A DNA stretch of 64,000 nucleotides, from the NCBI GenBank assembly GCA_015061905.1, contig SUVQ01000003.1, forward strand, positions 1 to 64,000, in the 5' to 3' direction. The position numbers and the translations under genes were made by a program. Of the stretch, positions 15,342-57,720 are shown in pieces (the first letter of the stretch is position 1; every line of letters starts with the position of its first letter). A model generated the notes under the pieces. It was given only the letters and a program-made list of their open reading frames with translations. It was not told the origin of the DNA and made no database searches. The DNA is from Verrucomicrobiota bacterium. Its GTDB lineage: Bacteria > Verrucomicrobiota > Verrucomicrobiia > Opitutales > UBA953.

Positions 15342-15413
15342 AAGCCCAGTACTTAGTAATCATTGAATATTGCTTAATTTGGAATAAAACCCTTCTTGAA
15401 GACAAGCACTGCG

Positions 15414-16862
15414 ATGGAGAATTTGGACCGTTTAGTTAAAGAATTGTGCAAACAACCTAAGGAAACGGGGTGGCTTGAATTCAAACGCAATTATTGTGAC
15501 CCCAGAATGGTAGGGGAAGACATTAGTGCTCTTGCCAATAGTTCGGTTGTTGCCGGAAGGGATTGTGCATACATGCTGTGGGGGATTGAGGATGGCTCCC
15601 ATGACATTGTTGGTACTTCTGTGCGCTTGGCAGAAGAAAAGGTCGGAAATCAGGAGCTTGAAAGTTGGCTACGGTGTATGCTCTCCAAGAATGCTGATTT
15701 TCAAATGTACTCGTTGGATATTGATGATAAGCATGTTGAGGTTCTTATCATTGGGAGAGCTGTCGGTACGCCGGTTGCTTTTGATAAAATAGACTACATC
15801 CGAGTTGGCAGTTACACTAAAAAGCTCCGGGATTATTCAGCTCTGCAAGCGCAGCTTTGGGATCGATTGCGAGGTGGGCAATTTGAAGATATTTGTGCGC
15901 TGGAAGATTTAACGTTTCAGGATCTTTTTAAGCTTTTACATTTGGAGGCGTATTTTGACGTTCTGTCTGTTCCGATGCCGACAACTCCGGAAGGGAGTCT
16001 TCATTATCTCAAGGAGGATGGGATTATAAAATTGCAAGACAACGGGCTTTATTCAGTAACTAATGTTGGGGCGTTGCTGTTTGCTAAACGCTTATCTGAT
16101 TTTCCGCGAATCGGCAGAAAGGCAATTCGAATTGTTCAATATGACGGAAGCAACAGGGTGACCATTTTGAAAGAAGAGGTCTTCGACGAAGGCTATGCGG
16201 TTTCTTTCGAAAAGGCTGTTAAGCTTGTAAGTACGTTACTCCCTTTAAGAGAAGACATAAATTCTGTCCGACGAGTAATCCGTAGCGGCTTCCCGTTGCT
16301 CGCGATTCGCGAAGCGATCGCCAATGCAATTGTTCATCAAGATTTTTTTGTTACGGGGGCATCGCCTATTGTGGAGATTTTTGATGGTAGGATTGAGATT
16401 ACAAATCCAGGGACTCCGTTGATTAACATTATGCGGATAGTGGATAATCCTCCAAAATCCAGAAATGAGAAGCTTGCGACTCTCATGAGGCGGTTGGGGG
16501 TGTGCGAAGAATTAGGGCGAGGGTGGGATCGAATGGTTATTAGTTGCGAACTTTTGCAGTTATCTGCTCCACGAATTGAGATTTATGAAGATTCTACAAG
16601 GGTTGTTCTGTCCTCCTTCGTAGGCTTTTCTCGTCTTACCCAGGAGGATAAGCGGTGGTCTACCTACCTTCATGCCTGCATAAAGTTTATGGAGGGTGGT
16701 GCACTGTCGAATGCGTCTCTTAGGCAGCGCTTTGGGTTGCAGGAATCTTCTTCCGGAAGCATTTCCCGACTTATTAAATTGGCGGTATCCGGTAATCTTT
16801 TAAAACCCCTGGATGCCAATACTGCACCGCGCTACATGAAATACGTTCCGATATGGGCATGA
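15414..16862 (+). CDS. AlbA_2 (Schlafen-type) domain / HATPase protein, putative regulator
   Basis: 482 residues from the ATG at 15414 (a TTG at 15396 is also possible). The N-terminal AlbA_2/Schlafen-type nucleic-acid-binding domain shows GWLEFKRN (about 19-26) and AYMLWGIEDG. A GHKL-type ATPase region shows EAIANAIVHQD (300-310) and IFDGRIEITNPG. A helix-turn-helix-like tail follows (about 430-482). This architecture (COG2865) is common on mobile and defence-associated DNA; function is rarely known. It is not a sugar gene and has no octamer copy, consistent with insertion into the glycosyltransferase duplication. Confidence 0.85.
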   Translation: MENLDRLVKELCKQPKETGWLEFKRNYCDPRMVGEDISALANSSVVAGRDCAYMLWGIEDGSHDIVGTSVRLAEEKVGNQELESWLRCMLSKNADFQMYSLDIDDKHVEVLIIGRAVGTPVAFDKIDYIRVGSYTKKLRDYSALQAQLWDRLRGGQFEDICALEDLTFQDLFKLLHLEAYFDVLSVPMPTTPEGSLHYLKEDGIIKLQDNGLYSVTNVGALLFAKRLSDFPRIGRKAIRIVQYDGSNRVTILKEEVFDEGYAVSFEKAVKLVSTLLPLREDINSVRRVIRSGFPLLAIREAIANAIVHQDFFVTGASPIVEIFDGRIEITNPGTPLINIMRIVDNPPKSRNEKLATLMRRLGVCEELGRGWDRMVISCELLQLSAPRIEIYEDSTRVVLSSFVGFSRLTQEDKRWSTYLHACIKFMEGGALSNASLRQRFGLQESSSGSISRLIKLAVSGNLLKPLDANTAPRYMKYVPIWA

Positions 16863-18932: not shown

Positions 18933-20201
18933 ATGTTTATCGATTTTTCCGTTGAAAATTTTCGTTCGTTTTCGTCGAGGGTGACGCTCTCGGTGGAAGC
19001 GGTTACCGCGTTTAAAGAAGAGGCTCAGAATGTTGTTGAGCCGAAAAAAGCTTTGAAGCTCTTGAGGAGTGCGGCTGTTTACGGGGCGAATTCGAGCGGA
19101 AAGACAAATCTGGTCTTAGCGATGCTGTATATGAAAGGCATCGTACTAAACTCATCCAAGCACAGTTCTGTCGATAAGCTGAAAGTTGATTCGTGTTTAC
19201 TTTCAGAAGACGGAGAAAAAAGACCGAGTTCATTTGAAATTCGTTTTGTTATTGATGATTTTATATATCGTTACGGGTTCCAGGTAACACGGGATGCGGT
19301 TGTTTCCGAGTGGCTTTTACGTTCGGGTGGCGTTCGCGGGAAAGAATTTATTCTTTTTACTCGGGAGGGGCAGAACGTTTCGGTCGGTGATACATTTTCG
19401 GATGCTAAAGAAGTTGATTTTAGCGAACTGTTGCCAAATGTTCTTTGTCTGTCTTTTTTGGATAATCGCAATAAAGAGGTTGCGAAGGCTGTTGTTGGGC
19501 AATTCAGCAATATTGCACTGTTTTCGGGGGTTATTGAGGAGACCTATCAAGGACAGACGTTGGAAGATATTTTGAATAATCCCGCGAATAAGAGGGCGAT
19601 TCTTAAACTTTTGACGTTGGCGGATGGAAGTATTGTGGATGTGGGGATTCGTCCGATGCCGTTGGGAATATGGGAGCAATTCCCCCGGAAAATTCGAGAT
19701 AAGGTTCCGACTGGAAGTGCCGGAGATATTTTTATCCGGCGACAGGTAATTTCAAAAGACGGAGGCTTGAGGATTATGGATTTTTCGTTGGGAGCACATG
19801 AGTCTGTTGGAACTCAAAAGTTGTTTAATTTGGCAACTCCGTGGTTGAGAAGCTTGGCGCGGGGGAGTGTTGTGTTTGTTGATGAGCTGGAAGCGTCGTT
19901 ACATCCGTTGCTGACCCGTTTTTTGGTTCATTTGTTTAATTCTCCGGAGCTCAATCACAAGAATGCGCAGTTGGTTTTTGTGACACATGACACGAATTTA
20001 TTGACTTACGGCGGTTTCCGTCGCGACCAGATTTGGTTATGCGAAAAACGGGGAGACGGAACCTCGGATCTTTATGCTCTTGCGGAAATTGCAAAGGTTC
20101 GCAAAAACGACAAAATTGAGCGGAATTATTTGCAGGGGAAATACGGTGCGATCCCGTTCTTTGGAGGAATCGATTCGTTTGAGGAATATCAGGTGACGTA
20201 A
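18933..20201 (+). CDS. RloA/AbiLi-like AAA ATPase (COG1106)
   Basis: 422 residues. ABC/SMC-like ATPase of the AAA_15/AAA_21 type: N-terminal MFIDFSVENFRSF, Walker A GANSSGKT (51-58), signature-like LSLGAHESVGT, Walker B FVDELEASLHP (315-325) and switch His VTHD (350-353). In RloAB/AbiL and related two-gene systems this ATPase is thought to sense phage or nucleic-acid signals and control the partner. RloB follows after 2 bp. No Shine-Dalgarno is evident and the leader is very AT-rich. The gene lacks octamers and stands out from its polysaccharide neighbours. Confidence 0.87.
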   Translation: MFIDFSVENFRSFSSRVTLSVEAVTAFKEEAQNVVEPKKALKLLRSAAVYGANSSGKTNLVLAMLYMKGIVLNSSKHSSVDKLKVDSCLLSEDGEKRPSSFEIRFVIDDFIYRYGFQVTRDAVVSEWLLRSGGVRGKEFILFTREGQNVSVGDTFSDAKEVDFSELLPNVLCLSFLDNRNKEVAKAVVGQFSNIALFSGVIEETYQGQTLEDILNNPANKRAILKLLTLADGSIVDVGIRPMPLGIWEQFPRKIRDKVPTGSAGDIFIRRQVISKDGGLRIMDFSLGAHESVGTQKLFNLATPWLRSLARGSVVFVDELEASLHPLLTRFLVHLFNSPELNHKNAQLVFVTHDTNLLTYGGFRRDQIWLCEKRGDGTSDLYALAEIAKVRKNDKIERNYLQGKYGAIPFFGGIDSFEEYQVT

Positions 20202-20203
20202 CA

Positions 20204-20881
20204 ATGGGAAGACCTCAAAAGAAAAGCGATAGAGATAAACCGTGGATGCAAAGGTCGCAAAAGCGGCGTGTCGGGAATCGTCAGCCTCGCGTGCGAATTT
20301 TGCTTGTATGCGAGGATACTAAAAGTTCCGTTTATTATTTTAAAAGAATTCAGGAATTGCTTCCTAGTGGTGTTGTCTTTCTGTGTCCGCGGGGGACGGG
20401 GAGGAATACTCAGTCGTTAATAAACGACGTGGAGAATGTTCGTCAAAGAGAGGAGCGGGTAATTGGCACTCGGTTTGACCAAGTTTGGGTGCTTTTTGAT
20501 AAAGACAGCTTCAGTGATGCGCAATTCGATAATGCCATTCGTTCCGGAGAAGCGAAAGGGTATCGGGTTGCGTGGTCGAATGAATGCTTTGAGTTGTGGT
20601 ATCTCTTGCACTTTCAAGAGCAGTCTTCTTCTGTCGGGAGAGAAAAGATTTATGGAGGGTTAGAGGCGCATCTTGGTGTTAACCATTATGGGAAATTAAA
20701 GGGAGAGGCGGGGAAGTCGATTCATCAAAGGATGGCGGAAGATGCAGAGGGACGAAAACATGCAATTAGGCGTGCCAGAAAATTGGATAAGGAGGCTCGG
20801 GGTGCGTTTCACGGACGAAACCCGGTTACGAAAGTGTATCAACTGTTTGAAGTCCTGGATTCATGGATTACGGGGAATTGA
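20204..20881 (+). CDS. RloB/AbiLii-like protein, Toprim-like effector
   Basis: 225 residues. RloB family: basic N-terminus, LLVCEDTKSS with Glu37, and VWVLFDKDSF with Asp99 and Asp101, an E...DxD arrangement as in Toprim nucleases. C-terminal features are NECFELWYLLHF and basic helices. With RloA it forms the pair known from restriction-linked loci and the lactococcal abortive-infection system AbiL. A nuclease effector role is inferred from the fold, not shown. It is translationally coupled to the ATPase gene. Confidence 0.85.
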   Translation: MGRPQKKSDRDKPWMQRSQKRRVGNRQPRVRILLVCEDTKSSVYYFKRIQELLPSGVVFLCPRGTGRNTQSLINDVENVRQREERVIGTRFDQVWVLFDKDSFSDAQFDNAIRSGEAKGYRVAWSNECFELWYLLHFQEQSSSVGREKIYGGLEAHLGVNHYGKLKGEAGKSIHQRMAEDAEGRKHAIRRARKLDKEARGAFHGRNPVTKVYQLFEVLDSWITGN

Positions 20882-25798: not shown

Positions 25799-27358
25799 AT
25801 GCCGAAGGCAGCGACAGTTTCCGAGAACAACAAGCGTATCGCCAAGAATACGCTGATGCTCTATGTGAAAATGGGCGTGATGATGCTCGTTTCGCTCTAC
25901 ACGTCGCGCGTGGTCTTGCTGACGCTCGGCGTGGACGACTTTGGGATCTACAATGTTGTCGGTGGAGTGGTCGTGCTGTTTTCGTTTTTGAATGCGGCGA
26001 TGTCCTCGGCGACACAGCGCTTTCTGAATTTCGAGCTCGGAAAAAAAGATCTTGTCCAAGTCGGACGTGTGTTCTCTATGTCTCTGACGGTGCACTTCTG
26101 TATCGCGGGGCTTGTTCTTTTTTTAGCGGAAACGGTCGGGCTCTGGTTTTTAAATGCGGAGCTGAACATTCCCGCAGATCGCATGGCGGCGGCCAATTGG
26201 GTTTACCAGTTTTCGGTTGCGACAACTCTTTTGGGGATTCTCCTCGTTCCGTACAATGCGACAATCATTGCTCACGAACGCATGGGCTTCTACGCGTGGA
26301 CGAGCATTGTGAGGGGTCTGCTTCTTTTGGGAATTGTTTATCTGCTTGTTATCGGAAACATTGATAAACTCATCCTCTACGCGGGCTTGGTTTTCGCAGT
26401 TAACGCGTTGATGCAAATTGTCTACATCGCCTATTGCAAACATGCGTTCCCGCAAACGGCGATTTACAAACCGTTTCGCGACAAAAAACTTTTCCGGGAG
26501 CTCATTTCTTTTTCCGGATGGTCGCTTTTCGGCGGTGTGGCGGATATGTGCAATTCCCAGGGCATTAACATGGTGATGAATATTTTCTGCGGCGTTGCCG
26601 TCAACGCTGCCATGGGAATTGCCAATCAGGTGAACGCCGCCGTTTATCAGTTCGTTTCCAATTTCCAAATTGCATTCAATCCTCAACTCGTAAAATCCTA
26701 CGCTTCAAACGAGCGGGAACGTTTTATTTCTCTGATTTTAAGGACATCGAAATTTTCGTTCTTTTTGACCTTCTTTCTTGTTCTGCCGATTTGCTTAAAC
26801 ATCGATTTTATTTTGGAGCTTTGGCTTGGCGACGTTCCCGAATTTACTGCTGAATTTGTCCAACTGACGTTGTTCTACTCTTTGATTAGTTCGATTTCCG
26901 CACCGCTTTGGATGTCTGTTCAAGCCACGGGAGAAATCCGTAATTATCAGCTGATTGTCAGTTTTTTGATCTTGGTAAATTTGCCGTTCGCGTATGTTGC
27001 TTTAAAACTTGGGTTCCCGCCGACATGGGCTTTGGGGATTCGTGTCGCGATGAATTTTTTGACAACGCTTTGGCGGGTTTTCTATTTGCGCGGGAAAATC
27101 GGTTTGCCGGTCGGGAAATTCCTTCGCGGCGTTATTTTCAAAAGCTTTTTCGTCGGAGCTTTGGCAAGCCTGCTTCCTTTGTTTGTTTTTCAAAATATCC
27201 ACAATGCGTGGACTCAGCTCATCGCCTCGGGAACGTGCGCGTGTTTGAGCACGGTGGTGTTTGTTTGGTTTTTCGGATTTGAGAAAAACGAACGGACTTT
27301 CTTTTCAACGTTTTTAGTCGGACGACTTCCTTTTCTTCAAGTTCTAACAAAACGATAA
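25799..27358 (+). CDS. Wzx-type polysaccharide flippase 2
   Basis: 519 residues, about 12-14 transmembrane segments, MOP-superfamily polysaccharide transporter. LYTSRVVLLTLGVDDFGIYN (about 33-52) is the usual N-terminal motif. The leader and first 25 codons are almost the same as in flippase 1, after which similarity drops to that of distant paralogues. Opens block II and is followed 3 bp later by the cytidylyltransferase fusion, so it likely exports the repeat unit carrying that decoration. Confidence 0.9.
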   Translation: MPKAATVSENNKRIAKNTLMLYVKMGVMMLVSLYTSRVVLLTLGVDDFGIYNVVGGVVVLFSFLNAAMSSATQRFLNFELGKKDLVQVGRVFSMSLTVHFCIAGLVLFLAETVGLWFLNAELNIPADRMAAANWVYQFSVATTLLGILLVPYNATIIAHERMGFYAWTSIVRGLLLLGIVYLLVIGNIDKLILYAGLVFAVNALMQIVYIAYCKHAFPQTAIYKPFRDKKLFRELISFSGWSLFGGVADMCNSQGINMVMNIFCGVAVNAAMGIANQVNAAVYQFVSNFQIAFNPQLVKSYASNERERFISLILRTSKFSFFLTFFLVLPICLNIDFILELWLGDVPEFTAEFVQLTLFYSLISSISAPLWMSVQATGEIRNYQLIVSFLILVNLPFAYVALKLGFPPTWALGIRVAMNFLTTLWRVFYLRGKIGLPVGKFLRGVIFKSFFVGALASLLPLFVFQNIHNAWTQLIASGTCACLSTVVFVWFFGFEKNERTFFSTFLVGRLPFLQVLTKR

Positions 27359-27361
27359 ATT

Positions 27362-29167
27362 ATGCAGGCGATAATCTTAGCGGCAGGAATGGGCAAACGC
27401 TTGGGCGAACTGACAAGCGGGAACACAAAATGCATGGTCAAGGTAAACGGGATTCCGTTAATCGATCGGATGCTTTCTCAGCTTTCAAAATTGAATCTTT
27501 CGAAAATCGTTTTAGTCGTCGGATATCAGGCGGAAAACCTGAAAGCACACGTCGGGAACGCAATCGCGGGAACGCCGATTGTTTACGTCGAAAATCCGAT
27601 TTACGACAAGACGAACAATATTTATTCGCTTGCCCTCGCCAAGGATTTCCTCGTTAAGGAAGACACGCTTTTGCTCGAATCTGATCTCATCGTCGAAGAT
27701 GCCGTTCTCAATAAAATTCTCGAAAATCCGTTCCCGAATCTTGCCTTGGTTTCCAAGTATGAAACATGGATGGACGGCACAATGGTGCGCATGAACGATG
27801 ATTGCGACATCGTGAGTTTCATCCCGAAATCTGCATTCAAATATTCGGAAACGGACACCTACTACAAGACGGTAAACATTTACAAATTCAGCGCGGAGTT
27901 TTCCCGCTCGCATTACGTTCCGTTCCTCGAAGCTTACACCAAGGCACTCGGGAACAACGAATACTATGAGCAGGTTCTTCGCGTTATCACGATGCTCGAC
28001 AAAGTTGAGCTCAAGGCGCTTCCGCTCGACGGTGAAAACTGGTATGAAATCGACGACGTGCAGGATTTGGATATCGCCGAAGCGATTTTTGCCGAAAACG
28101 ATCAACGCCTGAAAAAATACTTCTGCCGCTACGGCGGATACTGGCGGTTCCCGCGCTTGCTGGATTTTTGCTATTTGGTAAATCCTTACTTCCCGTCTCC
28201 GCGCATGCGTGATGAATTGCGGGCAAATTTCGACGTGCTTTTGGCGGAATATCCGTCCGGCATGGGCGTGAATTCCCTGCTCGCAGGGAAATATTTCGGC
28301 GTTCGCCAAAGTTCAATCGTCGTCGGCAACGGCGCGGCGGAACTCATTAAGAGTCTCATGGAATCGTTCCCGGGAAAACTCGGCGTAACGTTCCCGACCT
28401 TTGAAGAATATCCGAATCGCCGCGAGAAATCAGAGGTGGAAGTTTTTGTTCCCGCCAATCCTGATTTTTCCTACTCGGCGGAAGATTTAAAAAACTTTTT
28501 TGCCGACAAAGGCATTTCTGCGCTTTTGCTCGTTAATCCGGACAATCCGTCGGGAAATTTTATTTCAAAAAGCGAAATCCTCGACCTTGCCGACTGGGCT
28601 CGGGAACGCAAAATCCGCCTCGTCGTCGATGAGTCTTTTGTCGATTTCGCAATCGGCGACGACAATACCTTGCTACGAAACGATATTCTCGACGCATTCC
28701 CGGAACTCATCGTCATGAAATCTATTTCGAAATCCTACGGCGTTCCCGGACTGCGTTTGGGTGTCTTGGCATCGTCTGACGAAGCGTTGATTTCTCGCAT
28801 GAAGAAAGATGTCGCTATATGGAATATCAATTCGTTTGCCGAGTTTTACATGCAGATTTTCGGAAAATACGAAGGAGACTATCGCAAGGCTTGCAAAAAG
28901 TTTATCTCCGAGCGGGAACGTTTTCAAAAACGGCTTTCAGAAATTCCGTTCCTGCGCGTAATCCCGTCGCAGGCGAATTATTTCCTTTGCGAAATTACGG
29001 AAAGATTTACGGCGGGAGAGTTGACGGCAAAGCTTTTAAACGAGGCGGACATTCTCATCAAAGATTGCTCAACGAAAGCGGCTTTTGACGGGAAAAACTA
29101 CATTCGCCTTGCCGTTCGCGATACCGCAGATAACGACAAACTCGTCGACACCTTGAAAGGGTTTTAA
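27362..29167 (+). CDS. Nucleotidyltransferase::class I aminotransferase fusion
   Basis: 601 residues. Domain 1 (about 1-240) is a sugar-phosphate/LicC-like nucleotidyltransferase: LAAGMGKRL (6-14) with conserved Lys23, ESDLIVED as metal-binding region, and EIDDVQDLDIAEAI near its end. Domain 2 (about 250-601) is a fold-type I PLP enzyme of the HisC/CobD group: NPDNPSGNF, DESFVDF, and SISKSYGVPGLRLG with PLP-binding Lys457. CobD-like enzymes can be aminotransferases or phosphoamino-acid decarboxylases, so the fusion may make and activate a phospho-amine or phospho-amino acid as its CDP form. It resembles PntC-type fusions in plan, but PntC has a class V transaminase. LicD at 31229 is the probable user of the product. 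Confidence 0.85.
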   Translation: MQAIILAAGMGKRLGELTSGNTKCMVKVNGIPLIDRMLSQLSKLNLSKIVLVVGYQAENLKAHVGNAIAGTPIVYVENPIYDKTNNIYSLALAKDFLVKEDTLLLESDLIVEDAVLNKILENPFPNLALVSKYETWMDGTMVRMNDDCDIVSFIPKSAFKYSETDTYYKTVNIYKFSAEFSRSHYVPFLEAYTKALGNNEYYEQVLRVITMLDKVELKALPLDGENWYEIDDVQDLDIAEAIFAENDQRLKKYFCRYGGYWRFPRLLDFCYLVNPYFPSPRMRDELRANFDVLLAEYPSGMGVNSLLAGKYFGVRQSSIVVGNGAAELIKSLMESFPGKLGVTFPTFEEYPNRREKSEVEVFVPANPDFSYSAEDLKNFFADKGISALLLVNPDNPSGNFISKSEILDLADWARERKIRLVVDESFVDFAIGDDNTLLRNDILDAFPELIVMKSISKSYGVPGLRLGVLASSDEALISRMKKDVAIWNINSFAEFYMQIFGKYEGDYRKACKKFISERERFQKRLSEIPFLRVIPSQANYFLCEITERFTAGELTAKLLNEADILIKDCSTKAAFDGKNYIRLAVRDTADNDKLVDTLKGF

Positions 29168-29170
29168 ACA

Positions 29171-30214
29171 ATGGAAATTCCCGGAAAAACACTCTGTATT
29201 TGCGGTGGAGGTTCGCTCGGTCATGTAATCGCGGGAACGGCGGCGGCGCGCGGATTCTGCGTGAACTTGCTTTCCGGACGGGCAGAACAATGGCACGACG
29301 AAATTACGATTCATGCCTGCGACGGAAAAGTTTTTTCCGGAAATCTTTCCAAAAAATCTGCCTCGGCAAGCGACGTTATTCCGGACGCGGATTTCGTTCT
29401 ACTCTGCGTTCCCGGGTATTTGATTCGTGAGACGCTTGAAAAAGTGGCACCCCATCTTCACACGGGAACGCCTGTCGGTTCCGTCGTTTCGAGTTCCGGA
29501 TTTTTCTTTGCGGCGCAAGAAGTTTTGCCTGCGGGAACGCCGCTTTTCGGATTCCAGCGTGTTCCCTATATCGCACGTGTGTCCGAATACGGGAAATCGG
29601 CGGATTTGCTTGGATATAAGAACGAAATTCGTTTGGCGACAAAAGATTTTCCGTCTGCCGACAGCCAAGAAGCATTTCGCCAAAAAATTGAAAAACTTTT
29701 GGATACGCCGACTGCGCTTCTTAAATCATTTTGGGATGCGGCTCTTACAAACTCTAATCCGCTTCTTCATCCGTGCCGCCTTTACGGCATGTGGAACGAT
29801 TGGGACGGAAAAACACCTTACGCGCAGCACACACTTTTTTACGAAGATTGGGATGATTTCTCATCGGAAATTCTTATCGCTGCAGACGAAGAATTTTTTG
29901 CGCTTTTGAAAAAACTTCCCGTAACGCCGGGCGCAATTCCGCGTCTGCCGGATTACTACGAATGCGGGAACGCATCGGAGCTGACACGTAAGCTGAAAAG
30001 CATTCCCGCTTTCCGGAAAATTCGCGCGCCGATGCTTGCTGTTCCCGGCGGATTTATCCCCGACGTGAAGAACCGCTACTTTACCGAAGACATTCCCTAC
30101 GGAATGAAAATTATCAAACAACTTGCACAACAAAATAACGTGGAAACACCGACGATAAATAGAGTGCTTAATTGGGGGCTTCAATTTTTTCCCCCCCCCC
30201 CATTTCGAAAATAA
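29171..30214 (+). CDS. Octopine/nopaline (opine) dehydrogenase-like protein
   Basis: 347 residues. Rossmann start LCICGGGSLGHVIAG (8-22) with GxGxxG-like motif, and a C-terminal NAD/NADP octopine dehydrogenase domain with LLHPCRLYGMW and the substrate-site GAIPRLPDYYE region. Opine dehydrogenases reductively condense a 2-oxo acid with an amino-acid amine. It ends in a C11 tract (30191-30201) just before the stop. One extra C would extend the protein by about 28 residues to a stop that overlaps the ATG of the next gene (ATGA), so the present form may be a phase variant. Follows the fusion gene after 3 bp. Confidence 0.82.
   Translation: MEIPGKTLCICGGGSLGHVIAGTAAARGFCVNLLSGRAEQWHDEITIHACDGKVFSGNLSKKSASASDVIPDADFVLLCVPGYLIRETLEKVAPHLHTGTPVGSVVSSSGFFFAAQEVLPAGTPLFGFQRVPYIARVSEYGKSADLLGYKNEIRLATKDFPSADSQEAFRQKIEKLLDTPTALLKSFWDAALTNSNPLLHPCRLYGMWNDWDGKTPYAQHTLFYEDWDDFSSEILIAADEEFFALLKKLPVTPGAIPRLPDYYECGNASELTRKLKSIPAFRKIRAPMLAVPGGFIPDVKNRYFTEDIPYGMKIIKQLAQQNNVETPTINRVLNWGLQFFPPPPFRK
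30191..30201 (+). repeat. Poly-C tract, 11 nt, at the end of the opine dehydrogenase gene
   Basis: Eleven C encoding PPPP, four codons before the stop. C12 (or C9) reads on without stops to TGA at 30295-30297, overlapping the next start codon; C10 ends two codons later than now. Confidence 0.92.
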
Positions 30215-30293
30215 AAAGTAATGCGATACGGCTATTTGCAGTTCATAGGCTTTACCGCGACGCGTCCTTTACGCTTGAGGAAAGGAGCGCGGC

Positions 30294-31232
30294 ATGAAGC
30301 TTATCGATTTTTCGGAAATAGCGGCGTTAAAAATTTCGCCGAAGGATTGTTTCGCGTGGGTGAAAGATGCGTTTTTGATCAAGCCGAAATCGCTTCTGCC
30401 GCCGAAAATCAGCACCAAGCAGGAGGGGAATGTTTTCTTTAATACAATGCCGTGTCTGATTCCGCAGATTGAACGCTTCGGCGTGAAAGAAGTTTCCCGC
30501 TTCCCGAATCGCGTTCCCGCACTGAAAAGCGATTTGATGCTTTATGATGCCAAGAGCGGAGAGCTTCTGTCCGTTATGGACGCGACTTGGATTACCGCGA
30601 TGCGCACCGGCGCCGTTGCGGCTCTTGCCGTTAAGACATTTCGCAGAAAAGACGCGAAAATTTACTCGTTTGTCGGCTTAGGAAATACGGCTCGGGCAAC
30701 GTTACTTTGCTTGCTTGAAAATACGGATACGCAAGAAAGACAGACGATTCGCCTTCTAAAATACAAAGGGCAGGAAAAACTTTTCGCAGAACGATTTTCA
30801 GGCTACGGGAACGTGTGTTTCGAATTTGTCGATTCGATGCGGGAGCTGATTGTCGGTGCGGATGTCGTTGTTTCTTGCGTGACGGCGTTCGATTCTCCCG
30901 TCGCTAAGGACGAATGGTTTAAGGAAGGCGTGCTCGTCGTTCCCGTGCATACGAGAGGATTTCAAAACTGCGATTTGTTTTTTGACAAAGTTTTTGCCGA
31001 CGATCGCGGGCATGTGGAAGGTTTTAAGTATTTTTCAAAATTTAAACAATTCGGAGAGCTTTCGGACGTGCTTCTCGGAAAAATTCCCGGCCGCGAATCC
31101 GAACGGGAACGTATCTTGGCTTACAACATAGGTATCGCTCTCCATGACGTTTATTTCGCGTCAAAAATCTACGAGCGTTCCCGCGCAGAAGAACACAATT
31201 TAATCACAAAACAGGAAAAATTTTGGGTATGA
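30294..31232 (+). CDS. Ornithine cyclodeaminase/mu-crystallin family protein
   Basis: 312 residues. Family features: KEVSRFPNRVPALKSDLMLYD (about 65-85, in parts), SVMDATWITAMRTGA (93-107), NAD-binding FVGLGNTARA (126-135), and DVVVSCVTAFDSPV. Members deaminate and cyclise ornithine or act as opine- or imino-acid reductases (for example SbnB). Adjacent to the opine dehydrogenase-like gene, a role in making an unusual amino acid or opine is likely. Shine-Dalgarno GAAAGGAG upstream. Its stop overlaps the LicD start (ATGA). Confidence 0.87.
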   Translation: MKLIDFSEIAALKISPKDCFAWVKDAFLIKPKSLLPPKISTKQEGNVFFNTMPCLIPQIERFGVKEVSRFPNRVPALKSDLMLYDAKSGELLSVMDATWITAMRTGAVAALAVKTFRRKDAKIYSFVGLGNTARATLLCLLENTDTQERQTIRLLKYKGQEKLFAERFSGYGNVCFEFVDSMRELIVGADVVVSCVTAFDSPVAKDEWFKEGVLVVPVHTRGFQNCDLFFDKVFADDRGHVEGFKYFSKFKQFGELSDVLLGKIPGRESERERILAYNIGIALHDVYFASKIYERSRAEEHNLITKQEKFWV

Positions 31233-32047
31233 GAGAAATAACACACGAAGAACTGAAACAAATTCAGCTCGGAATCTTGGACAAAGTTCACGATTTCTGC
31301 GAAAAAAACGGAATTACCTATTTCCTTTCGAGCGGAACTCTTATCGGTGCCGTGCGTCATAAGGGCTACATCCCTTGGGACGACGATCTCGACCTCTACA
31401 TGCCGCGCTCCGATTACGATAAATTCATCAAACTGTTTTCCGCCAACTCCCCGGAACACACAAAACTCCTCTCCCTCGAAACCGATAAAAAGTACTATTA
31501 TGCGTTTGCAAAGGTTATAGATCTTCGAACGGAAATGATAGAGCCGTCCTTGCCCGAAAAAATAGGAGTTTTCATTGATATATTCCCGTTGGAGAATGTT
31601 CCGTCTGGGAATTTTGCATGTTTGGTGTGGTATTGGATATGCTTGTTCCTCATTCAAGCACAAGCAAGTGTGTGCCTTTCTCAAACACGGAACTGGATAT
31701 GGCTTGTCAGATCTCGAACCTCACTAACGACTATGATAAAAGCTGTTCTATTTCCATTCTTGTGGCTATTCCCGATAGATTTGTTTGGTAAGCTGTATGG
31801 GATTTTTGTGAGGTTAATTCCACCTAGCACATATGTCTACAATATGAGTGCAGGAATAGGAATACACGGGCGTTTTCGCAACTCTGTCGTTGAGCGTTCG
31901 GTCGATATTGAATTTGAGGGAAAACTCTATAAGACAATGCATGGCTTTCGAGAGTATCTTTATGTGACTTATGGCGATTTTTCTGTATTGCCCCCACCGG
32001 AGAAAAGAGTGTTTGGGCATGGCTTTCCTGCGTGGTGGAAGAGCTAG
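31229..32047 (+). CDS. LicD family phosphotransferase
   Basis: 272 residues from the ATG at 31229 overlapping the previous stop. LicD signature: YFLSSGTLIGAVRHKGYIPW (31-50) and WDDDLDLYM with D51, D52, D53 and D55. LicD enzymes move phosphocholine or a similar phospho-group from a CDP carrier to a sugar on the cell surface polymer. The CDP-carrier is probably made by the fusion enzyme at 27362, as in LicC/LicD pairs. A hydrophobic segment follows at about 130-150. AT-rich downstream half. Last gene of the presumed decoration module. Confidence 0.9.
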   Translation: MREITHEELKQIQLGILDKVHDFCEKNGITYFLSSGTLIGAVRHKGYIPWDDDLDLYMPRSDYDKFIKLFSANSPEHTKLLSLETDKKYYYAFAKVIDLRTEMIEPSLPEKIGVFIDIFPLENVPSGNFACLVWYWICLFLIQAQASVCLSQTRNWIWLVRSRTSLTTMIKAVLFPFLWLFPIDLFGKLYGIFVRLIPPSTYVYNMSAGIGIHGRFRNSVVERSVDIEFEGKLYKTMHGFREYLYVTYGDFSVLPPPEKRVFGHGFPAWWKS

Positions 32048-32137: not shown

Positions 32138-33256
32138 ATGAAAATAACTTTCGTTTCTAATTTTTTGAATCATCACCAAACGCCGGTGGCGGACGAGCTT
32201 TATCGGAGATTGGGAGATGGGTATCGCTTTATTTCGACGACGGAGACGCCAGAATCTTTTTTGAAGAGCGGGTATCCGGATTGTCGGGCGTTCCCGTATA
32301 ATATTTTGGCTTACGAAAGTGAGGAGAAGCGGGGGGAGGCGCAGCGATTTGTCGATGAGGCGGATGCGGTGATTATCGGCTCTGCGCCGTATTCTTGGGT
32401 GGAAAAGCGCGTGGAGGCAGGGAAGCAGACGTTCATTTATTCGGAGCGATGGTTTAAGCGCGTGCCGAGAAATTATTTTTCGCCGGGTTTGTGGAAATCC
32501 CTGTTCAAATATCACTTCCGGTGGAGCAGAAAGCCGAACGTTTCGGTGCTTTGTGCGAGTGCGTTTTTGCCGAAGGATTTGGATTTGCTTGGGCTTTATA
32601 AAGGGCGGCGCTACAAATGGGGATATTTTACGGAGTGCCCGAAATTGGATATTTCGGAGATTATCGCAAAGCGAAATCGGGAGCGCATCGATATATTTTG
32701 GTGTGCCCGGTTTATTGGCTGGAAGCGTTGGGATTTGCCGATTCTTTTGGCAGGACATTTAAAACGCGCCGGATACAAATTTCGTCTCCGCATGGCGGGA
32801 ACGGGCGCAGATTGGGAAAAGGCAAAGCGATTGGTAGAGAGACAAGGTGTGGGCGATTGTGTGAAGTTGATAGGAACCCTTCCCAATGCGGAGATTCTGG
32901 AGAAAATGCGGGAAAGCAGTGTTTTTCTTTTTACCTCGAATCGCCAGGAAGGGTGGGGAGCCGTGCTTAATGAAGCAATGGGGAGCGGGTGTGCCTGCGT
33001 CGTCGGAAACGAGATAGGTTCTGCTCCGTATCTTATCAAAGACGGCGAAAACGGTTTTCTGTTTAAGTCTTGCAACTTGGAGGACTTAAAGAAAAAGGTT
33101 CGTCTTCTGCTGGATGATGTTGCGTTGCGGGAACGCATTTCTGTCGCGGCTTACAGGACAATGCAGAATGAGTGGAGTCCTAGGAATGTCGCTTCTCAAT
33201 TTCTTTCATTAAATGAGAATTTAACTCCAAAGAACGGTGTTTGTTCTAAATCTTAA
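32138..33256 (+). CDS. GT4-type glycosyltransferase
   Basis: 372 residues, start preceded by TTAGGAGG. GT-B fold: MKITFVSNFLNHHQTPVADE (acceptor loop), FWCARFIGWKRWDLPILLAG (about 188-207), MAGTGADWEKAKRL, LFTSNRQEGWGAVLNEAMGSG with E-x7-E (about 268-288). Probably adds a block II sugar. It lies between the LicD module and the EpsG-type polymerase (10-bp gap). Confidence 0.87.
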   Translation: MKITFVSNFLNHHQTPVADELYRRLGDGYRFISTTETPESFLKSGYPDCRAFPYNILAYESEEKRGEAQRFVDEADAVIIGSAPYSWVEKRVEAGKQTFIYSERWFKRVPRNYFSPGLWKSLFKYHFRWSRKPNVSVLCASAFLPKDLDLLGLYKGRRYKWGYFTECPKLDISEIIAKRNRERIDIFWCARFIGWKRWDLPILLAGHLKRAGYKFRLRMAGTGADWEKAKRLVERQGVGDCVKLIGTLPNAEILEKMRESSVFLFTSNRQEGWGAVLNEAMGSGCACVVGNEIGSAPYLIKDGENGFLFKSCNLEDLKKKVRLLLDDVALRERISVAAYRTMQNEWSPRNVASQFLSLNENLTPKNGVCSKS

Positions 33257-33266
33257 AAGATAAAAT

Positions 33267-34367
33267 ATGGTTCAAATAGTCCTTATCTTAATTGCATGTT
33301 TATCGGTATTTGTTTTTCCGAGCTCTTTTTCGGAGGGGAAGAAGCGCGCGTGTGTGATAGCATTGGTGATGTTTCTTTGTTTTTTGATAGGAGGATTGCG
33401 TCACGAAGCAGTTGGCGCGGACACTATTTCTTACAGGTTTTGGTTTGAGCGAGTTGAGTTGCAGTCTTGGGGGGAAATTTTTTCGGGGCTGTTTACTTCA
33501 TGGGGTGCGGAGGACAGAGTTCGAGATCCGCTTTATGCGCTTTATACAAAGACATTCCAAATTTTTTCGACGAACTATCGGGCATTTATGTTTTTTGTTT
33601 TGGGATGCTTTTATTTGCCGTTTGCGCGGTGGCTTTATAAATACGTTTTGAGTTTCGACGGTTTAATTCTTGCATTCGTATTTTTCTTAACGATGTTTTT
33701 TCCGTTTGTGATGACGGGATACCGCCAAACGTTGGCACTTGCAGTATGTTTGGTCGCGTATGATTTTATTGTAAAGAGGAAGCTTGGTTGGTTCTTATTG
33801 TTCATGGCGGTTGCTGTGTTGTTTCATAAGAGTGCGGCGGTATTCTTGCCTTTTTATTTTCTTTCGAGGATAAAGCAAACATCGCTCGTTTTGTGGGTTG
33901 CTTTATTGGCATTTCCCATAGTTTTTTACTTTAGGACTCAGTTTGCGGTTTTTCTTGCAGGAATCGCAGCCGACGAAAATTATATGAATTATGCGCTGGG
34001 AGAAGGGGAACTTGGGGCTCCGGTGAATTTTACTTTGCTATTTTTAGTAGTAGCACTTTTTTCTGCAATAATGTCTTCTCCGACGTGTCGGAGCCTGCCG
34101 GACTCGCGACCCTATTTTGTTGCGGTTGCATTGGCTCTCTTATTTTTACCGTTGCCGTGGCTTAATCCTGTGCTCATGCGTGTGGTCATGTATTATGCCG
34201 TATTTTTGCATCTATGCCTTCCGGCAATTGGTCAATCATGGGAACGAAGAGCTTCCGGAATGGGGCGAACGATGGTGCTTGTTTCTGTCGTTACCGTGAT
34301 TGCTTTTACATTTCTTCGAGGAGGAGCGTTTTTCTTCATGTGGGAGCATGTTCCCGGACACTACTAA
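33267..34367 (+). CDS. EpsG-type polysaccharide polymerase
   Basis: 366 residues, about ten transmembrane helices. The loop GGLRHEAVGADTISYRFWF (about 47-65) corresponds to the 'R..vGtDt..Y' signature of EpsG family proteins, which act as Wzy-like polymerases. It would join block II repeat units exported by flippase 2. AT-rich, without octamers, so probably imported. Confidence 0.85.
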   Translation: MVQIVLILIACLSVFVFPSSFSEGKKRACVIALVMFLCFLIGGLRHEAVGADTISYRFWFERVELQSWGEIFSGLFTSWGAEDRVRDPLYALYTKTFQIFSTNYRAFMFFVLGCFYLPFARWLYKYVLSFDGLILAFVFFLTMFFPFVMTGYRQTLALAVCLVAYDFIVKRKLGWFLLFMAVAVLFHKSAAVFLPFYFLSRIKQTSLVLWVALLAFPIVFYFRTQFAVFLAGIAADENYMNYALGEGELGAPVNFTLLFLVVALFSAIMSSPTCRSLPDSRPYFVAVALALLFLPLPWLNPVLMRVVMYYAVFLHLCLPAIGQSWERRASGMGRTMVLVSVVTVIAFTFLRGGAFFFMWEHVPGHY

Positions 34368-34382
34368 GCGAAAGGTTGTACT

Positions 34383-35600
34383 ATGAAAATCTTCCATATA
34401 AATTCGACGAGTCATGGAAGCACGGGAACGATTGCGCGGCAGATAATTTCAGCGTGCGAGGCGGCAGGGCACACGGGATATTTCGCACACGGCTTGGGAA
34501 AGATTTTTTCCGAGCGGGAGTATGTGCTGAGTTCCGTATGGCGAACGCGGTGGCATAATCTCTGTTCCCGTATTACGGATAGACAGTGCTTTTTTTCTAA
34601 GAAAGATACTTTGCGGCTAATTGATTTAATTCGAGCGGCGAATCCGGATATTATCCATCTGCATAATTTACACGGACATTATCTGCATATTGGTGTTTTG
34701 TTTGAGTTTTTAAAAACGTTTCCGGGGAGGGTAGTTTGGACGCTTCATGATTGTTGGTTGTTTACGGGGCATTGCGCTTATTTTGATTTCTTGAAGTGTG
34801 AGAAATGGCGGAATGGGTGTGAAAAGTGCCCAGGGCTTACACGCTATCCTCCGAGCTTTATTGCAGACGCCTCCAAACGAAATTGGAGAGACAAACGGGA
34901 GCTGTTTTCTTCTGTAGAGAAATTAATACTCTGTCCGGTTTCGGACTGGCTTGGTGTGCTTGTAAAAGGCTCATTTCTGAAAAATAAAAGAGTTTGTCGT
35001 ATCCATAATGGCGTAGATGTAGAAATATTCCAACCGGTTGATGCTACGGAAAAAATTCGAAAAAACTATTCCCTCGGGGCGCAGTTAATGGTTTTAGGCT
35101 GTGCAAGTGGATGGGAAGAGCGTAAAGGCCTTCCGGATTTTATTAAATTGCGGGAACGGTTTTCGGAAGGAGATTTGGCGATTGTTTTGGTCGGCTTAAC
35201 GGAAAAGCAGATAAAGGAATTGCCGGCGGGAATTGTTGGAATCCGTCGGACGGGAAGCGCGGAGGAGCTTGCGGAATTATATTCGGCGGCGGATTTGTTT
35301 GTGAATCCGACATACGAGGATAATTTTCCGACCGTGAATATTGAGGCTCTTGCGTGCGGCACTCCGGTTTGCACTTATCGCACGGGAGGTTCTCCCGAGG
35401 CAGTTGATTCGGTGACGGGTTTTGTGGTCGAGCAGGGCGATATCGACGGAATCGTTTCGGCGATTGAGACGGTGCGTTCCCGCGGGAAAGCGGCTTATTC
35501 GGCGGCATGTCGTTCCCGTGTGTTGAATTGTTTCCGCAAGGAAGATCGCTATGCGGAATATGTAAGCCTTTATGAAAAATTAGCCCGCGAATTGCACTGA
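34383..35600 (+). CDS. GT4-type glycosyltransferase
   Basis: 405 residues. MKIFHINSTSHGSTGTIARQ, IIHLHNLHGHYL (about 97-108), WTLHDCWLFTGHCAYFDFLKC, LGCASGWEERKGLPDF and PTYEDNFPTVNIEALACGTP with E-x7-E are typical of WcaC/WcaL-type group 1 transferases of colanic-acid-like clusters. Substrate unknown. It has several octamer copies in its 3' half and few in the 5' half. Confidence 0.87.
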   Translation: MKIFHINSTSHGSTGTIARQIISACEAAGHTGYFAHGLGKIFSEREYVLSSVWRTRWHNLCSRITDRQCFFSKKDTLRLIDLIRAANPDIIHLHNLHGHYLHIGVLFEFLKTFPGRVVWTLHDCWLFTGHCAYFDFLKCEKWRNGCEKCPGLTRYPPSFIADASKRNWRDKRELFSSVEKLILCPVSDWLGVLVKGSFLKNKRVCRIHNGVDVEIFQPVDATEKIRKNYSLGAQLMVLGCASGWEERKGLPDFIKLRERFSEGDLAIVLVGLTEKQIKELPAGIVGIRRTGSAEELAELYSAADLFVNPTYEDNFPTVNIEALACGTPVCTYRTGGSPEAVDSVTGFVVEQGDIDGIVSAIETVRSRGKAAYSAACRSRVLNCFRKEDRYAEYVSLYEKLARELH

Positions 35601-35647
35601 TTTCACAAACTTATATTGGTGGTATTTGTGAAATTTGTGGGAGGAAG

Positions 35648-36976
35648 ATGAATTCTAAAATGAAAAAACAAGATGCTAAAATTTTGATATTGAGCTCGGA
35701 TCCTTGGCGGGATCAAGGCGGCGATAATACGTCGCAACAACTTTTTTCCGATTGTCCGAAAGAAAACCTGTATTCGCTTTACTTTTCTCCGGAGATGCCG
35801 GATACGAAATCCTGCGGGAAGATTTTCAGGATTAATGAAATCGGGTTTCCGAAGAAGCTTTTGTCTCCGCCATTTCAGGTTGGACGCGAATTGGCGAAAG
35901 AAGAATTTTTGAATCCTCGATCGGTAGCCGGATATGCGCAGAACCCGAAAAAGAAGTTGTTTAAAAAGCTGTCTCAAAACTCATTCGTGAGTTTTTTTCT
36001 AAATTGTGCTCGCGAATGTGCGTGGGCATTGGGTTTGTGGAAGGAGCATTCGCTGAAACGCTTTCTCAAAGAAAATCCTGTCGATGTGATATTTTTCCCT
36101 GTTTCAAAATGGGCATTTCAGAGCTTGGTTGTGAAGTGGATTTTGAAGCAGTGCGGGGCGCGATTGATACTGTTTTTTGTAGATGATTCTTTCACTTATA
36201 AATCGGTGCCGCCGTATTATTACTGGAAGCAGTTTCTGTTTCGGCGTTTGCAATTAAACCTCGTTCGTCGGGCGTCGCAGGTGTTTGTCATCTCGCCGAA
36301 GATGAAGCGGGAATACGATGCGGTGCTTTGTAGGGAAACGGTATTGCTTACTAAGCCGATTGAAAGCGTTCCCGAGGACGCGGGAACGGGCGCACTTGAA
36401 AACTCCGACGCTATGACATTCCTTTATGCGGGAAATTTACTTTACGGACGCGACCGCATTTTGCTGAAAATCGCGGAAGCGTTGCGCGATTACAATAAGA
36501 CGCACGGAACAGCGCATCGGCTGAAAATTTATTCCCGGGATCCGCTGACGCCGCAGGTTTTGCACGCGTTTCGTGCTGCGGGAAGAGCCTGTGAACTTTG
36601 CGCGGCGGTTCCGTATTCGGAGTTGCAGACGATAATAAAAAAATCCTGCGACGTGCTTGTTTTTCCGGAATCTTTTGACAAGAACGAGAAGCGAAAAACG
36701 TGGCTTTCGTTTTCCACGAAGATTACGGATTATTTTAAGAGCGGGAAGCTCGTTTGGGCTGTCGGACCACGCGATGTATCTTCCATCGAATATTTGGAAG
36801 AAAACGATTGTGCGTTTGTTGCCGGCGATTTGCCGTCAATTTCTCAAACCCTGGAAAAAATCGTTTCCGGACGTTCGGAACATGCGAAGAAAATAGAAAA
36901 TGTGAAATCGGTTGCGCTGCGGTTTCACTCCCGGGAAAAGATTTTGGACAGCTTAAATACGGCTTTCGGGGAGTAG
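35648..36976 (+). CDS. Glycosyltransferase, GT-B fold (divergent)
   Basis: 442 residues from the ATG at 35648. No close family is recognised, but ILILSSDPWRDQGGDNTSQQ at the start, VFVISPKMKREYD (about 215-227), FLYAGNLLYGRDRILLKIAE and FPESFDKNEKRKTWLSFSTK (about 338-357) match a GT-B donor-site layout. Probably acts on the block II repeat unit. A 9-bp inverted repeat (TTTCACAAA, 35601 / 35625) sits in the spacer before it. Confidence 0.75.
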   Translation: MNSKMKKQDAKILILSSDPWRDQGGDNTSQQLFSDCPKENLYSLYFSPEMPDTKSCGKIFRINEIGFPKKLLSPPFQVGRELAKEEFLNPRSVAGYAQNPKKKLFKKLSQNSFVSFFLNCARECAWALGLWKEHSLKRFLKENPVDVIFFPVSKWAFQSLVVKWILKQCGARLILFFVDDSFTYKSVPPYYYWKQFLFRRLQLNLVRRASQVFVISPKMKREYDAVLCRETVLLTKPIESVPEDAGTGALENSDAMTFLYAGNLLYGRDRILLKIAEALRDYNKTHGTAHRLKIYSRDPLTPQVLHAFRAAGRACELCAAVPYSELQTIIKKSCDVLVFPESFDKNEKRKTWLSFSTKITDYFKSGKLVWAVGPRDVSSIEYLEENDCAFVAGDLPSISQTLEKIVSGRSEHAKKIENVKSVALRFHSREKILDSLNTAFGE

Positions 36977-41764: not shown

Positions 41765-42217
41765 TTAGTCTTTCAGCCAATATTGTTCGTCCGGATTGAT
41801 ACCGTTTTCCTGCAGTATTTTTCTGTATTCGTTCTCAAAATTTACGACCTTGTGATGTTCCCGCTGCCGGGCAATGTAGGCGACGACACGCTCTTTGTCG
41901 GCTTCGCTCACGGCAAGCGCGGCGTATTGGCTTCCCCAAGCAATGAAATCCGGAAAAATTGTATGCTGTTTTTTCAGCCAGGCGTGAGTTGAGGTTTTTA
42001 ATTCTTTTACAAAATCGGAGACTGCAATCGAGGGATGAAGATCGACCAAAAGATGAAGGTGATTGGGGATTCCGTTTATTCTGTGAAGTACGCATTTCTT
42101 TCCGCGAACAAATCCCCAAATATAACGGTAGAGCTTTTCCGCGTGTTCGTTCGGGAACGCGTCGCGACTGTATTTGGTGCGAATGATAACGTGGAGAAGC
42201 AGATTCGTGTAACTCAT
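41765..42217 (-). CDS. IS200-like/REP-associated Y1 (HUH) transposase
   Basis: 150 residues from the ATG at 42217. HUH motif H53-L-H55 within PNHLHLLVDL, and catalytic Tyr114 in VVAYIARQREHH with Gln118. Single-strand transposases of this type move or spread hairpin-bearing elements. No TnpB is adjacent; instead two hairpin types are mirrored on both sides, fitting a REP-associated tyrosine transposase. It lies inside the segment bounded by inverted site pair 2, beside the tyrosine recombinase. Confidence 0.88.
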   Translation of the reverse strand: MSYTNLLLHVIIRTKYSRDAFPNEHAEKLYRYIWGFVRGKKCVLHRINGIPNHLHLLVDLHPSIAVSDFVKELKTSTHAWLKKQHTIFPDFIAWGSQYAALAVSEADKERVVAYIARQREHHKVVNFENEYRKILQENGINPDEQYWLKD

Positions 42218-42267
42218 GGATAAGAAAAAACGACAAAGAAAATCGTTTTTAGCGTAACGGCAACACA

Positions 42268-42356
42268 ATGTTGCGCTTTTTAAGCGCATTTCCCCTTGCC
42301 GGTCTCCGCAGGTAACTTGCTTTACCTGCGGTTATTATTGTCCGGCTTTTTAAGCC
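42268..42356 (-). repeat. REP-like hairpins, right side of the Y1 transposase
   Basis: Hairpin TGCGCTT / AAGCGCA (42272-42278 with 42282-42288) and CCGCAGGTAA / TTACCTGCGG (42306-42315 with 42322-42331) followed by TTATTATTGTCCGGCTTTTTAAG; an inverted copy of 41659-41745. Confidence 0.85.
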
Positions 42357-42499
42357 GTTCGGATTTCGGGGAGCATTGCCTTTTGCAATCAAAGAAAGGT
42401 GTTCTGTCGCGGAGGATAATCATGCGGATATTGTTCCCGACGGACTTTCGGAACAACGGTTTTGTTGCGTTTTTCGAGACAGTTGACTGAGGGGAAACA

Positions 42500-43552
42500 T
42501 CACCCGAACGTTCCCGCCCAAAAACGCTCGGCGGCGGCAAACGTCACTCCGCGCATTGATAAATAGCGCGTGCGCAAAAGGCGCGGGGACGAGTGCCCCA
42601 TCTCGCATTGGAGCTGCGGGAGGTTTTTGAAAAATTTCAAATGATAGCTCGCGAACGTGTGGCGTAGCACGTCCTGTTGCCACGGGTTTTCCGGTGAGCT
42701 CCAGCCGGCGGTGCGACGAATGCGTTTCCACTTGCGTTGCCAGTTCGGCGGACAAATTTTTTCGTCGGAAAAACGGGGACGCGCGGCAAGCAATTTTTCT
42801 AAAACCGGCAGAATGCTGACATGCCGGCTTCCGCCCGTTTTGCTGTGTAGCGGCGAAATCGAAATCACTTTTTCTTCCCAATCGATGTCGCTCCAGTAGA
42901 GGCGCTCGACTTCGCGAGGACGAATGCCCGCAAACAGCATCAGCGCGATCGCGGGAACGCATTCCCGCAAGTTCAGCTTCCGCGCGGCAGTGAAAATTGA
43001 CGCGATTTCGCCGAGCGACAACGGACGGATTTCACGCTCCTTCGGAATCGGAAAATCCGTCGCCGTTATCGGGTTTTCCCGGCACCACCCGTGCCGCACA
43101 CAATAGGCAAAAAACGAATGAAGCACGGCGCGCGCCTTGCGCCGCTGGCGCGGGGTGTTGAATGCGATTTCAAGAATTTTTCCGAAGGTCGGTGTATCCG
43201 CTGTATGGATACGCATAAGCGAACTTGTCGGGAATTGAGACAAAATCGAAGAAAAAACTTGCCGATAATCACAAATTGAGCGTTCCCGCAAGTGGCTTTT
43301 GGAAACGAGGAATTTCTTAAAAGCTTTGCGAAAATTCGGCGTGCGGCGTTCCCGCGAGGCAGCATCGCAACCGATGCGAAAAATGCTCCGCAAGCGACTC
43401 AGCTTTTTCGTGCGCCCGAGCTCGCTGAGTTCTTTGACGAAACGCGCGGCATCAAGCACGCCGATATCCGTATTTTCGAGGATTTTCTGCGCACTCGCCG
43501 CCTGTGCCACGAGCTCTTTGCTGACCCGAATTTTAAAGCCTTTCGTTTTCAT
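42500..43552 (-). CDS. Tyrosine recombinase (integrase/Xer-like)
   Basis: 350 residues. Core-binding domain about 70-165 and catalytic domain from about 175. Active-site residues are in place: Arg211 (MLFAGIRPREVERLYW), Lys238 (LHSKTG), Arg297 within DVLRHTFASYH (the usual His is Asp294), His320 (MGHSSP) and Tyr330 (TRYLSM). It lies wholly between inverted sites at 41519 and 43576, its start 24 bp from the right one. It is therefore the natural candidate for inverting this segment and the 218-bp one at 22.3-22.6 kb. Octamer copies show it is not a very recent arrival. Confidence 0.9.
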   Translation of the reverse strand: MKTKGFKIRVSKELVAQAASAQKILENTDIGVLDAARFVKELSELGRTKKLSRLRSIFRIGCDAASRERRTPNFRKAFKKFLVSKSHLRERSICDYRQVFSSILSQFPTSSLMRIHTADTPTFGKILEIAFNTPRQRRKARAVLHSFFAYCVRHGWCRENPITATDFPIPKEREIRPLSLGEIASIFTAARKLNLRECVPAIALMLFAGIRPREVERLYWSDIDWEEKVISISPLHSKTGGSRHVSILPVLEKLLAARPRFSDEKICPPNWQRKWKRIRRTAGWSSPENPWQQDVLRHTFASYHLKFFKNLPQLQCEMGHSSPRLLRTRYLSMRGVTFAAAERFWAGTFG

Positions 43553-45108: not shown

Positions 45109-45111
45109 TCA

Positions 45112-46170: not shown

Positions 46171-46183
46171 GAAAGCACTAAAG

Positions 46184-47452: not shown

Positions 47453-47497
47453 AAGAGGCTCTTAAGAAATTCATAAAAATTTAATCGAAAACATATT

Positions 47498-48019: not shown

Positions 48020-48040
48020 TGATTTAAGAAAGGACGTAAT

Positions 48041-48925: not shown

Positions 48926-48937
48926 GGAGTAAAATTC

Positions 48938-51494: not shown

Positions 51495-51497
51495 ACC

Positions 51498-52598: not shown

Positions 52599-52601
52599 TT
52601 A

Positions 52602-54098: not shown

Positions 54099-54100
54099 TC

Positions 54101-55042: not shown

Positions 55043-55054
55043 TCGAAAAATACG

Positions 55055-55828: not shown

Positions 55829-55846
55829 TTCAAAAAGGAAATTATA

Positions 55847-56791: not shown

Positions 56792-56799
56792 TAATTTTT

Positions 56800-57708: not shown

Positions 57709-57720
57709 GAGGAAATACAT

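Follow-up and report, generated by a model that had tools for sequence, protein, structure and literature searches.

A putative pathway for opine-modified phosphoethanolamine in a surface-polysaccharide locus of a Verrucomicrobiota bacterium

Four complete and intact open reading frames (ORFs), all on the + strand, occupy positions 27362–32047 of a 64,000-nucleotide stretch from a Verrucomicrobiota bacterium (GenBank assembly GCA_015061905.1, contig SUVQ01000003.1; hereafter the window) and probably make and attach an opine-modified phosphoethanolamine, a reading to which we assign a probability of roughly 0.6. It draws on domain families, conserved catalytic residues, gene partnership and fused proteins. 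The first ORF (27362..29167; 601 residues) encodes a LicC/PntC-like cytidylyltransferase (CTase) joined to a CobD/SMUL_1544-like pyridoxal phosphate (PLP) domain, referred to below as the fusion. It is followed by an octopine-dehydrogenase homologue (ODH; 29171..30214; 347 residues), an OCD/mu-crystallin homologue of the NAD(P)H imine-reductase type (OCD; 30294..31232; 312 residues) and a LicD-family phosphotransferase (31229..32047), which starts either at an ATG at 31229 or at a TTG at 31223. The fusion and ODH are 3 bp apart, ODH and OCD 79 bp apart, and OCD and LicD share an ATGA overlap, so that the tight spacing claimed in an earlier note on this DNA agrees with both the ORF coordinates and the junction sequence. 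Its family assignments are likewise matched by Pfam domains, all above cut-off: NTP_transf_3/NTP_transferase (residues 3–122) and Aminotran_1_2 (residues 310–598) in the fusion, Octopine_DH (PF02317; E 3e-32) in ODH, OCD_Mu_crystall (PF02423; E 3e-33) in OCD and PF04991 (E 3.1e-38) in LicD, the translation of which contains the DDD-type motif WDDDLDLY.

The pathway that we infer has three steps, and its substrates, step order, 2-oxo acid, stereochemistry, acceptor and product are predictions, as is the equivalence of OCD with ODH. The fusion would turn O-phospho-L-serine and cytidine triphosphate (CTP) into cytidine diphosphate (CDP)-ethanolamine, with the N-terminal domain transferring CMP and the C-terminal CobD-like domain removing CO2, in either order (FrbH, discussed below, cytidylylates first). 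ODH, or OCD in other strains, would then form an imine between the primary amine of CDP-ethanolamine (or of phosphoethanolamine) and a 2-oxo acid, pyruvate being the simplest choice, and reduce it with NAD(P)H to an N-(1-carboxyalkyl)ethanolamine; OCD could be an alternative N-carboxyalkylating enzyme or one that reduces another imine. Finally, LicD would take the N-(carboxyalkyl)ethanolamine phosphate off CDP and place it on a capsule or O-antigen sugar made by the surrounding genes.

Proteins in which these activities are physically joined put the fusion in one pathway with ODH and LicD. CTase, PLP and ODH domains form a single protein of 943–946 residues at three loci (L058, L066 and L078), the ODH portions being 45–48% identical to the window ODH, and ODH and LicD form a single protein at five (L067, L096, L113, L118 and L123). 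Pairwise identities are 83–88% among the former and 55–91% among the latter; the proteins differ in sequence and thus represent separate genes from different assemblies, which a single assembly error would not produce. Each kind may have arisen once or only a few times. OCD is tied to the pathway solely by its position and its replacement of ODH.

The genes also recur far beyond the window genome. We collected 80 loci carrying the closest relatives of the window fusion (60–69% identical), mostly from gut Bacteroidales but also from Akkermansia, Fibrobacter and one Clostridia metagenome-assembled genome; ODH lies near the fusion in 48, OCD in 20, both in one and neither in 13, proportions that are not population frequencies given that the loci were chosen by similarity to the window. 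LicD is present in 62 of these loci, and the junction between fusion and ODH is usually a 4 bp ATGA overlap or a short gap. A sample of 393 Bacteroidales genomes drawn independently of similarity contains the fusion in 13, accompanied by ODH in four, by OCD in three and by neither in six. Cultured carriers include Hoylesella timonensis, with ODH, and Bacteroides cellulosilyticus DSM 14838, with OCD. Co-occurrence, which the earlier note had asked about, is therefore widespread, although the unit is not quite the one proposed there: the fusion, LicD and either ODH or OCD make up the usual set, and the full four-gene set is the exception. The suggestion that the transferred group is of opine type and not choline is the best reading.

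The CTase domain (approximately residues 1–250) is closest to LicC and PntC. Seven residues of the fusion (K23, E106, D108, E203, K457, R582 and R586) are invariant in 23 relatives, and among them K23 corresponds to the consensus catalytic lysine of nucleotidyltransferases, which is K38 in FrbH and K25 in PntC (PMC6697681). In PntC, Glu104 and Glu196 face the primary amine, whereas the choline-specific LicC has Asp105 and Asp192 at these places (PMC6697681). E106 of the fusion aligns directly with PntC Glu104, and E203 matches D192 in the LicC alignment but in that with PntC is displaced by one residue. The choline pocket of LicC is thus not kept, its two aspartates giving way to the invariant Glu106 and Glu203, a pocket that would favour a small primary amine as substrate. 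As in the LicC/LicD phosphocholine (lic) pathway, the four genes combine a LicC-like domain for CDP activation with a LicD transferase; they differ in the putative Glu/Glu amine pocket, in that no LicA/LicB-type choline uptake or kinase genes were seen at the locus, and in the proposed de novo synthesis and amine alkylation of the head group.

The PLP domain (approximately residues 258–601, with K457 as the candidate PLP-binding lysine) resembles phosphoserine/threonine-phosphate decarboxylases. Profile comparisons gave 2e-67 for SMUL_1544, 9e-47 for CobD and 1e-36 for the best annotated HisC (leaving aside 3ftb, of uncertain annotation), and in the predicted structure (fusion model pLDDT 86.5) the fold is also closest to the phosphoamino-acid decarboxylases SMUL_1544 and CobD. 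A functional precedent is provided by FrbH from FR-900098 biosynthesis, which cytidylylates 2-amino-4-phosphonobutyrate and then decarboxylates it (PMC8976061, PMC8007912). Likened here by published description and not by sequence, FrbH is, as is the fusion, a single chain with an N-terminal CTase followed by a C-terminal PLP domain (PMC8976061), and it turns an amino acid into a primary amine activated with CMP (PMC8007912, PMC8976061), as proposed for the fusion. Its substrate is an isostere of O-phosphoserine, and the phosphate version of the reaction would therefore give CDP-ethanolamine. The setting differs in that FrbH serves a phosphonate antibiotic, whereas the fusion lies in a surface-polysaccharide locus with ODH/OCD and LicD as partners and without phosphoenolpyruvate (PEP) mutase. 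In Gloeothece, genes for a methyltransferase and LicD come after a more distant fusion, as expected if the product there goes on to a methylated ethanolamine. On Priestia megaterium plasmid pBM700 (L021, 7992–11638), a distant fusion homologue lies near an extra 1-deoxyxylulose-5-phosphate reductoisomerase, which recalls a fosmidomycin/FR-900098-type cluster with self-protection by a copy of the target.

Alternatively, the PLP domain might be an aminotransferase, in which case the fusion would activate another amino-alcohol phosphate and ODH/OCD would alkylate that amine. Campylobacter capsules, for which serinol phosphate is formed from dihydroxyacetone phosphate, offer a model for such a route. 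Histidinol-phosphate aminotransferases are also among the matches of the domain, and in whole-chain Foldseek comparison the fusion has as its first match the CTase–aminotransferase PntC-AEPT from Treponema denticola (PDB codes 6PD1 and 6PD2), albeit with a poor global superposition (TM-score 0.36). PntC-AEPT shares with the fusion the joining of a CTase to a PLP enzyme and, at the Glu104 position, a glutamate that would face a primary amine; however, its PLP domain is an aminotransferase of class V and its product a phosphonate, whereas the window genome is without PEP mutase. SMUL_1544 and CobD score clearly above HisC, and FrbH, which has the same architecture, is a decarboxylase; we consider the aminotransferase unlikely, although it is the best placed of the alternatives.

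The AlphaFold2 model of ODH (pLDDT 93.8) has octopine dehydrogenase as its best structural match. The protein contains the NAD-binding glycine motif, and its H200, R302 and D307, which are invariant in 28 relatives, align with the catalytic residues H212, R324 and D329 of scallop octopine dehydrogenase. The reaction of opine dehydrogenases couples an amine with a 2-oxo acid. The window ODH shares its family, fold and catalytic His/Arg/Asp positions with scallop octopine dehydrogenase (PDB code 3C7A) and other opine dehydrogenases, but it is only ∼25% identical to the scallop protein, its predicted amine is CDP- or phosphoethanolamine, and the genes for enzymes of its type are fused with, or coupled to, those for CTase and LicD. 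Acting on either amine with pyruvate, ODH would give N-(1-carboxyethyl)ethanolamine phosphate. N-[(R)-1-carboxyethyl]ethanolamine phosphate appears in a figure on Klebsiella pneumoniae capsules and Proteus mirabilis O-polysaccharides (PMC9630907). The Proteus group, reported in that paper as a chemical structure, is the product predicted for ODH with pyruvate. We take it to belong to the O-polysaccharide of P. mirabilis O14. Scallop octopine dehydrogenase forms a D centre, which would fit the R configuration of the Proteus group.

The literature gave no match for opine dehydrogenase together with O-antigen or phosphoethanolamine, nor for octopine dehydrogenase together with LicD, in a limited search, and no description of this gene set was found among open-licence papers. 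The earlier note knew of no characterised pathway with this set; the fusion has an architectural and biochemical precedent in FrbH, and chemists have already described the likely decoration in Proteus (PMC9630907). A Proteus ODH found in a plasmid collection was considered as a link to the O-antigen and set aside, as it sits in a siderophore-type operon and not in an O-antigen cluster. ODH relatives on Paraburkholderia and Mesorhizobium plasmids adjoin tyrosinase genes and are uninformative on glycans.

ODH and OCD are probably ALTERNATIVES, with equivalent chemistry, imine reduction, on the same amine. Near the fusion they tend to exclude one another (Fisher p = 4.8e-9 over the 80 loci, uncorrected for kinship), OCD takes the place of ODH in 19 of these loci, and on the fusion tree the ODH/OCD label requires at least 15 changes; it is this exclusivity and repeated replacement that argue for equivalent chemistry. 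No ODH occurs elsewhere in the genomes of four ODH-less loci (L048, L055, L074 and L108). In an Akkermansia-like genus, the gene after the fusion is ODH in three genomes and OCD in another three, and a record named as Akkermansia (L098) carries the fusion–OCD pair. At two Akkermansia-like loci (L042, 7765–9120; L043, 12535–13890) a 451-residue fusion of CTP_transf_like and GFO/IDH/MocA domains, a further CDP-activating enzyme, stands beside the ODH/OCD gene. The window OCD keeps K65 and the R104-T-G motif and shares its family and invariant motifs with SbnB, but it adjoins the CTase fusion and LicD and not a diaminopropionate operon. In P. mirabilis (L026, 8985–13955), what we take to be a siderophore-type operon has ODH following an SbnA-like gene, in the place where one would look for SbnB, presumably a precedent for interchange between ODH and OCD/SbnB.

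The idea that ODH and OCD are successive steps of one route fares poorly, as they are normally alternatives and coexist at just one of the 80 loci. Exchange alone, on the other hand, does not account for the window and L079, which have both. We offer tentatively, as something possible but less than even in likelihood, that ODH and OCD act as exchangeable modules, each producing its own version of a common surface group on CDP-ethanolamine, with opposite stereochemistry at the new carbon or with different 2-oxo acids. The swap of a single gene would then create a new antigen in gut bacteria, Akkermansia among them, and loci such as the present one, where the two coexist, would make two variants or a doubly N-carboxyalkylated ethanolamine.

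Three further explanations concern the transferred group. The fusion and LicD might add plain ethanolamine (or choline) phosphate, with ODH and OCD as mere neighbours acting on unrelated metabolites. Plain phosphoethanolamine is plausible for loci where the fusion is found without ODH or OCD, mostly beside LicD (13 of the 80 loci, and six of the 13 in the Bacteroidales sample, five of the six with LicD adjoining). As a general account this explanation is improbable in view of the CTase–PLP–ODH and ODH–LicD proteins, the tight coupling and the way in which OCD repeatedly takes over the position of ODH. Another possibility is that the product of ODH/OCD is a free opine amino acid, joined to a uronic acid through an amide bond. 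Such amino acids occur as amide substituents, carboxyethyl-lysine in some O-antigens being an example, and a UDP-sugar dehydrogenase is encoded at 43861–45108; yet no ligase-type gene was found among the genes from the probable flippase to position 36976, and ODH is physically fused to CTase at some loci and to LicD at others, which leaves this slightly less probable again. A phosphonate substrate such as aminoethylphosphonate, suggested by the resemblance of the CTase domain to PntC and by a Rhizobium plasmid cluster that joins PEP mutase, LicC-like, PLP and ODH genes, is very improbable and was rejected, because PEP mutase (TIGR02320) is missing from the window genome and from eight other carrier genomes, the weak PF13714 matches in Akkermansia and Bacteroidales carriers being probably other members of the superfamily. 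That cluster, on a plasmid of Rhizobium sp. 007 (L024, 1462–12815), comprises PEP mutase, a LicC-like protein, a CDP-alcohol phosphotransferase, PLP enzymes, octopine dehydrogenase and a methyltransferase and possibly makes an opine-type phosphonate natural product.

Several observations weigh against an opine-modified phosphoethanolamine. The reports consulted on A. muciniphila lipooligosaccharide mention no such substituent, but the material that they describe is de-acylated, so that they offer little usable evidence on it. Members of the LicD family also transfer choline or ribitol phosphate, some loci have TagD- or IspD-like cytidylyltransferases near LicD, and 18 of the 80 loci, with their similarity-based selection, are without LicD within the stretch read. 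K567 of the fusion aligns with CobD R323, so that CobD-type substrate binding is not fully kept.

The window gene set was probably acquired horizontally, as it is patchy and absent from near relatives: outside the window genome (2.08 Mb, 98% complete, with one ODH, one convincing OCD and two LicD genes), the fusion was found in none of the 95 closest genomes and ODH in none of 372 genomes of the same order. A phylum-wide sample adds fusions 59–66% identical to that of the window, from another genus of its class and from one further genome of the phylum. A capsule-type locus of Fusobacterium vincentii (L019, 7023–12869) has a fusion (52% identical) between formyltransferase-like and DUF1015 genes, with LicD upstream and neither ODH nor OCD noticed at the locus. 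A role of the DUF1015 protein as a serine kinase was considered but could not be supported, and the limited literature search gave no match for it.

Judged by gene content, the four genes are set in a capsule/O-antigen locus. They lie between a probable MatE-like polysaccharide flippase (25799..27358, +; weak Pfam MatE match, E 6.5e-6), which belongs to the same transcriptional run and ends 3 bp before the fusion, and a group of genes of the same polysaccharide locus (32138..36976, +) for a glycosyltransferase, an EpsG-family polymerase, a second glycosyltransferase and a weakly matching glycosyltransferase-like protein. Elsewhere in the window, a Schlafen/AlbA_2 protein with an HATPase_c_4 domain (15396–16862, +) has glycosyltransferase genes on both sides, and an adjacent gene pair within the polysaccharide region (18933–20881, +), encoding an AAA ATPase and an RloB-like protein, matches the AbiL pair of abortive-infection genes in PADLOC (AbiLi E 7e-93, AbiLii E 3e-26). 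An IS200-like transposase and a phage-type integrase (41765–43552, −) separate two polysaccharide gene blocks, which fits a horizontally acquired region. The second block (43861–58995, +) has its own nucleoside-diphosphate-sugar genes, an aminotransferase and a PglD-like gene, a flippase and an O-antigen ligase/polymerase-like gene.

If the proposed pathway is correct, these would be the genes for an opine-type phosphodiester already reported chemically in bacterial O-antigens, and the group would be predicted in many gut commensals, including Bacteroides, Prevotella, Akkermansia and Fibrobacter. The route would lead from phosphoserine directly to CDP-ethanolamine, without ethanolamine uptake or a kinase. 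ODH, OCD and LicD sequences would serve as markers for predicting glycan chemistry from genomes, and the charge of the group, which combines an amine, a carboxylate and a phosphate, should affect immune recognition and phage binding.

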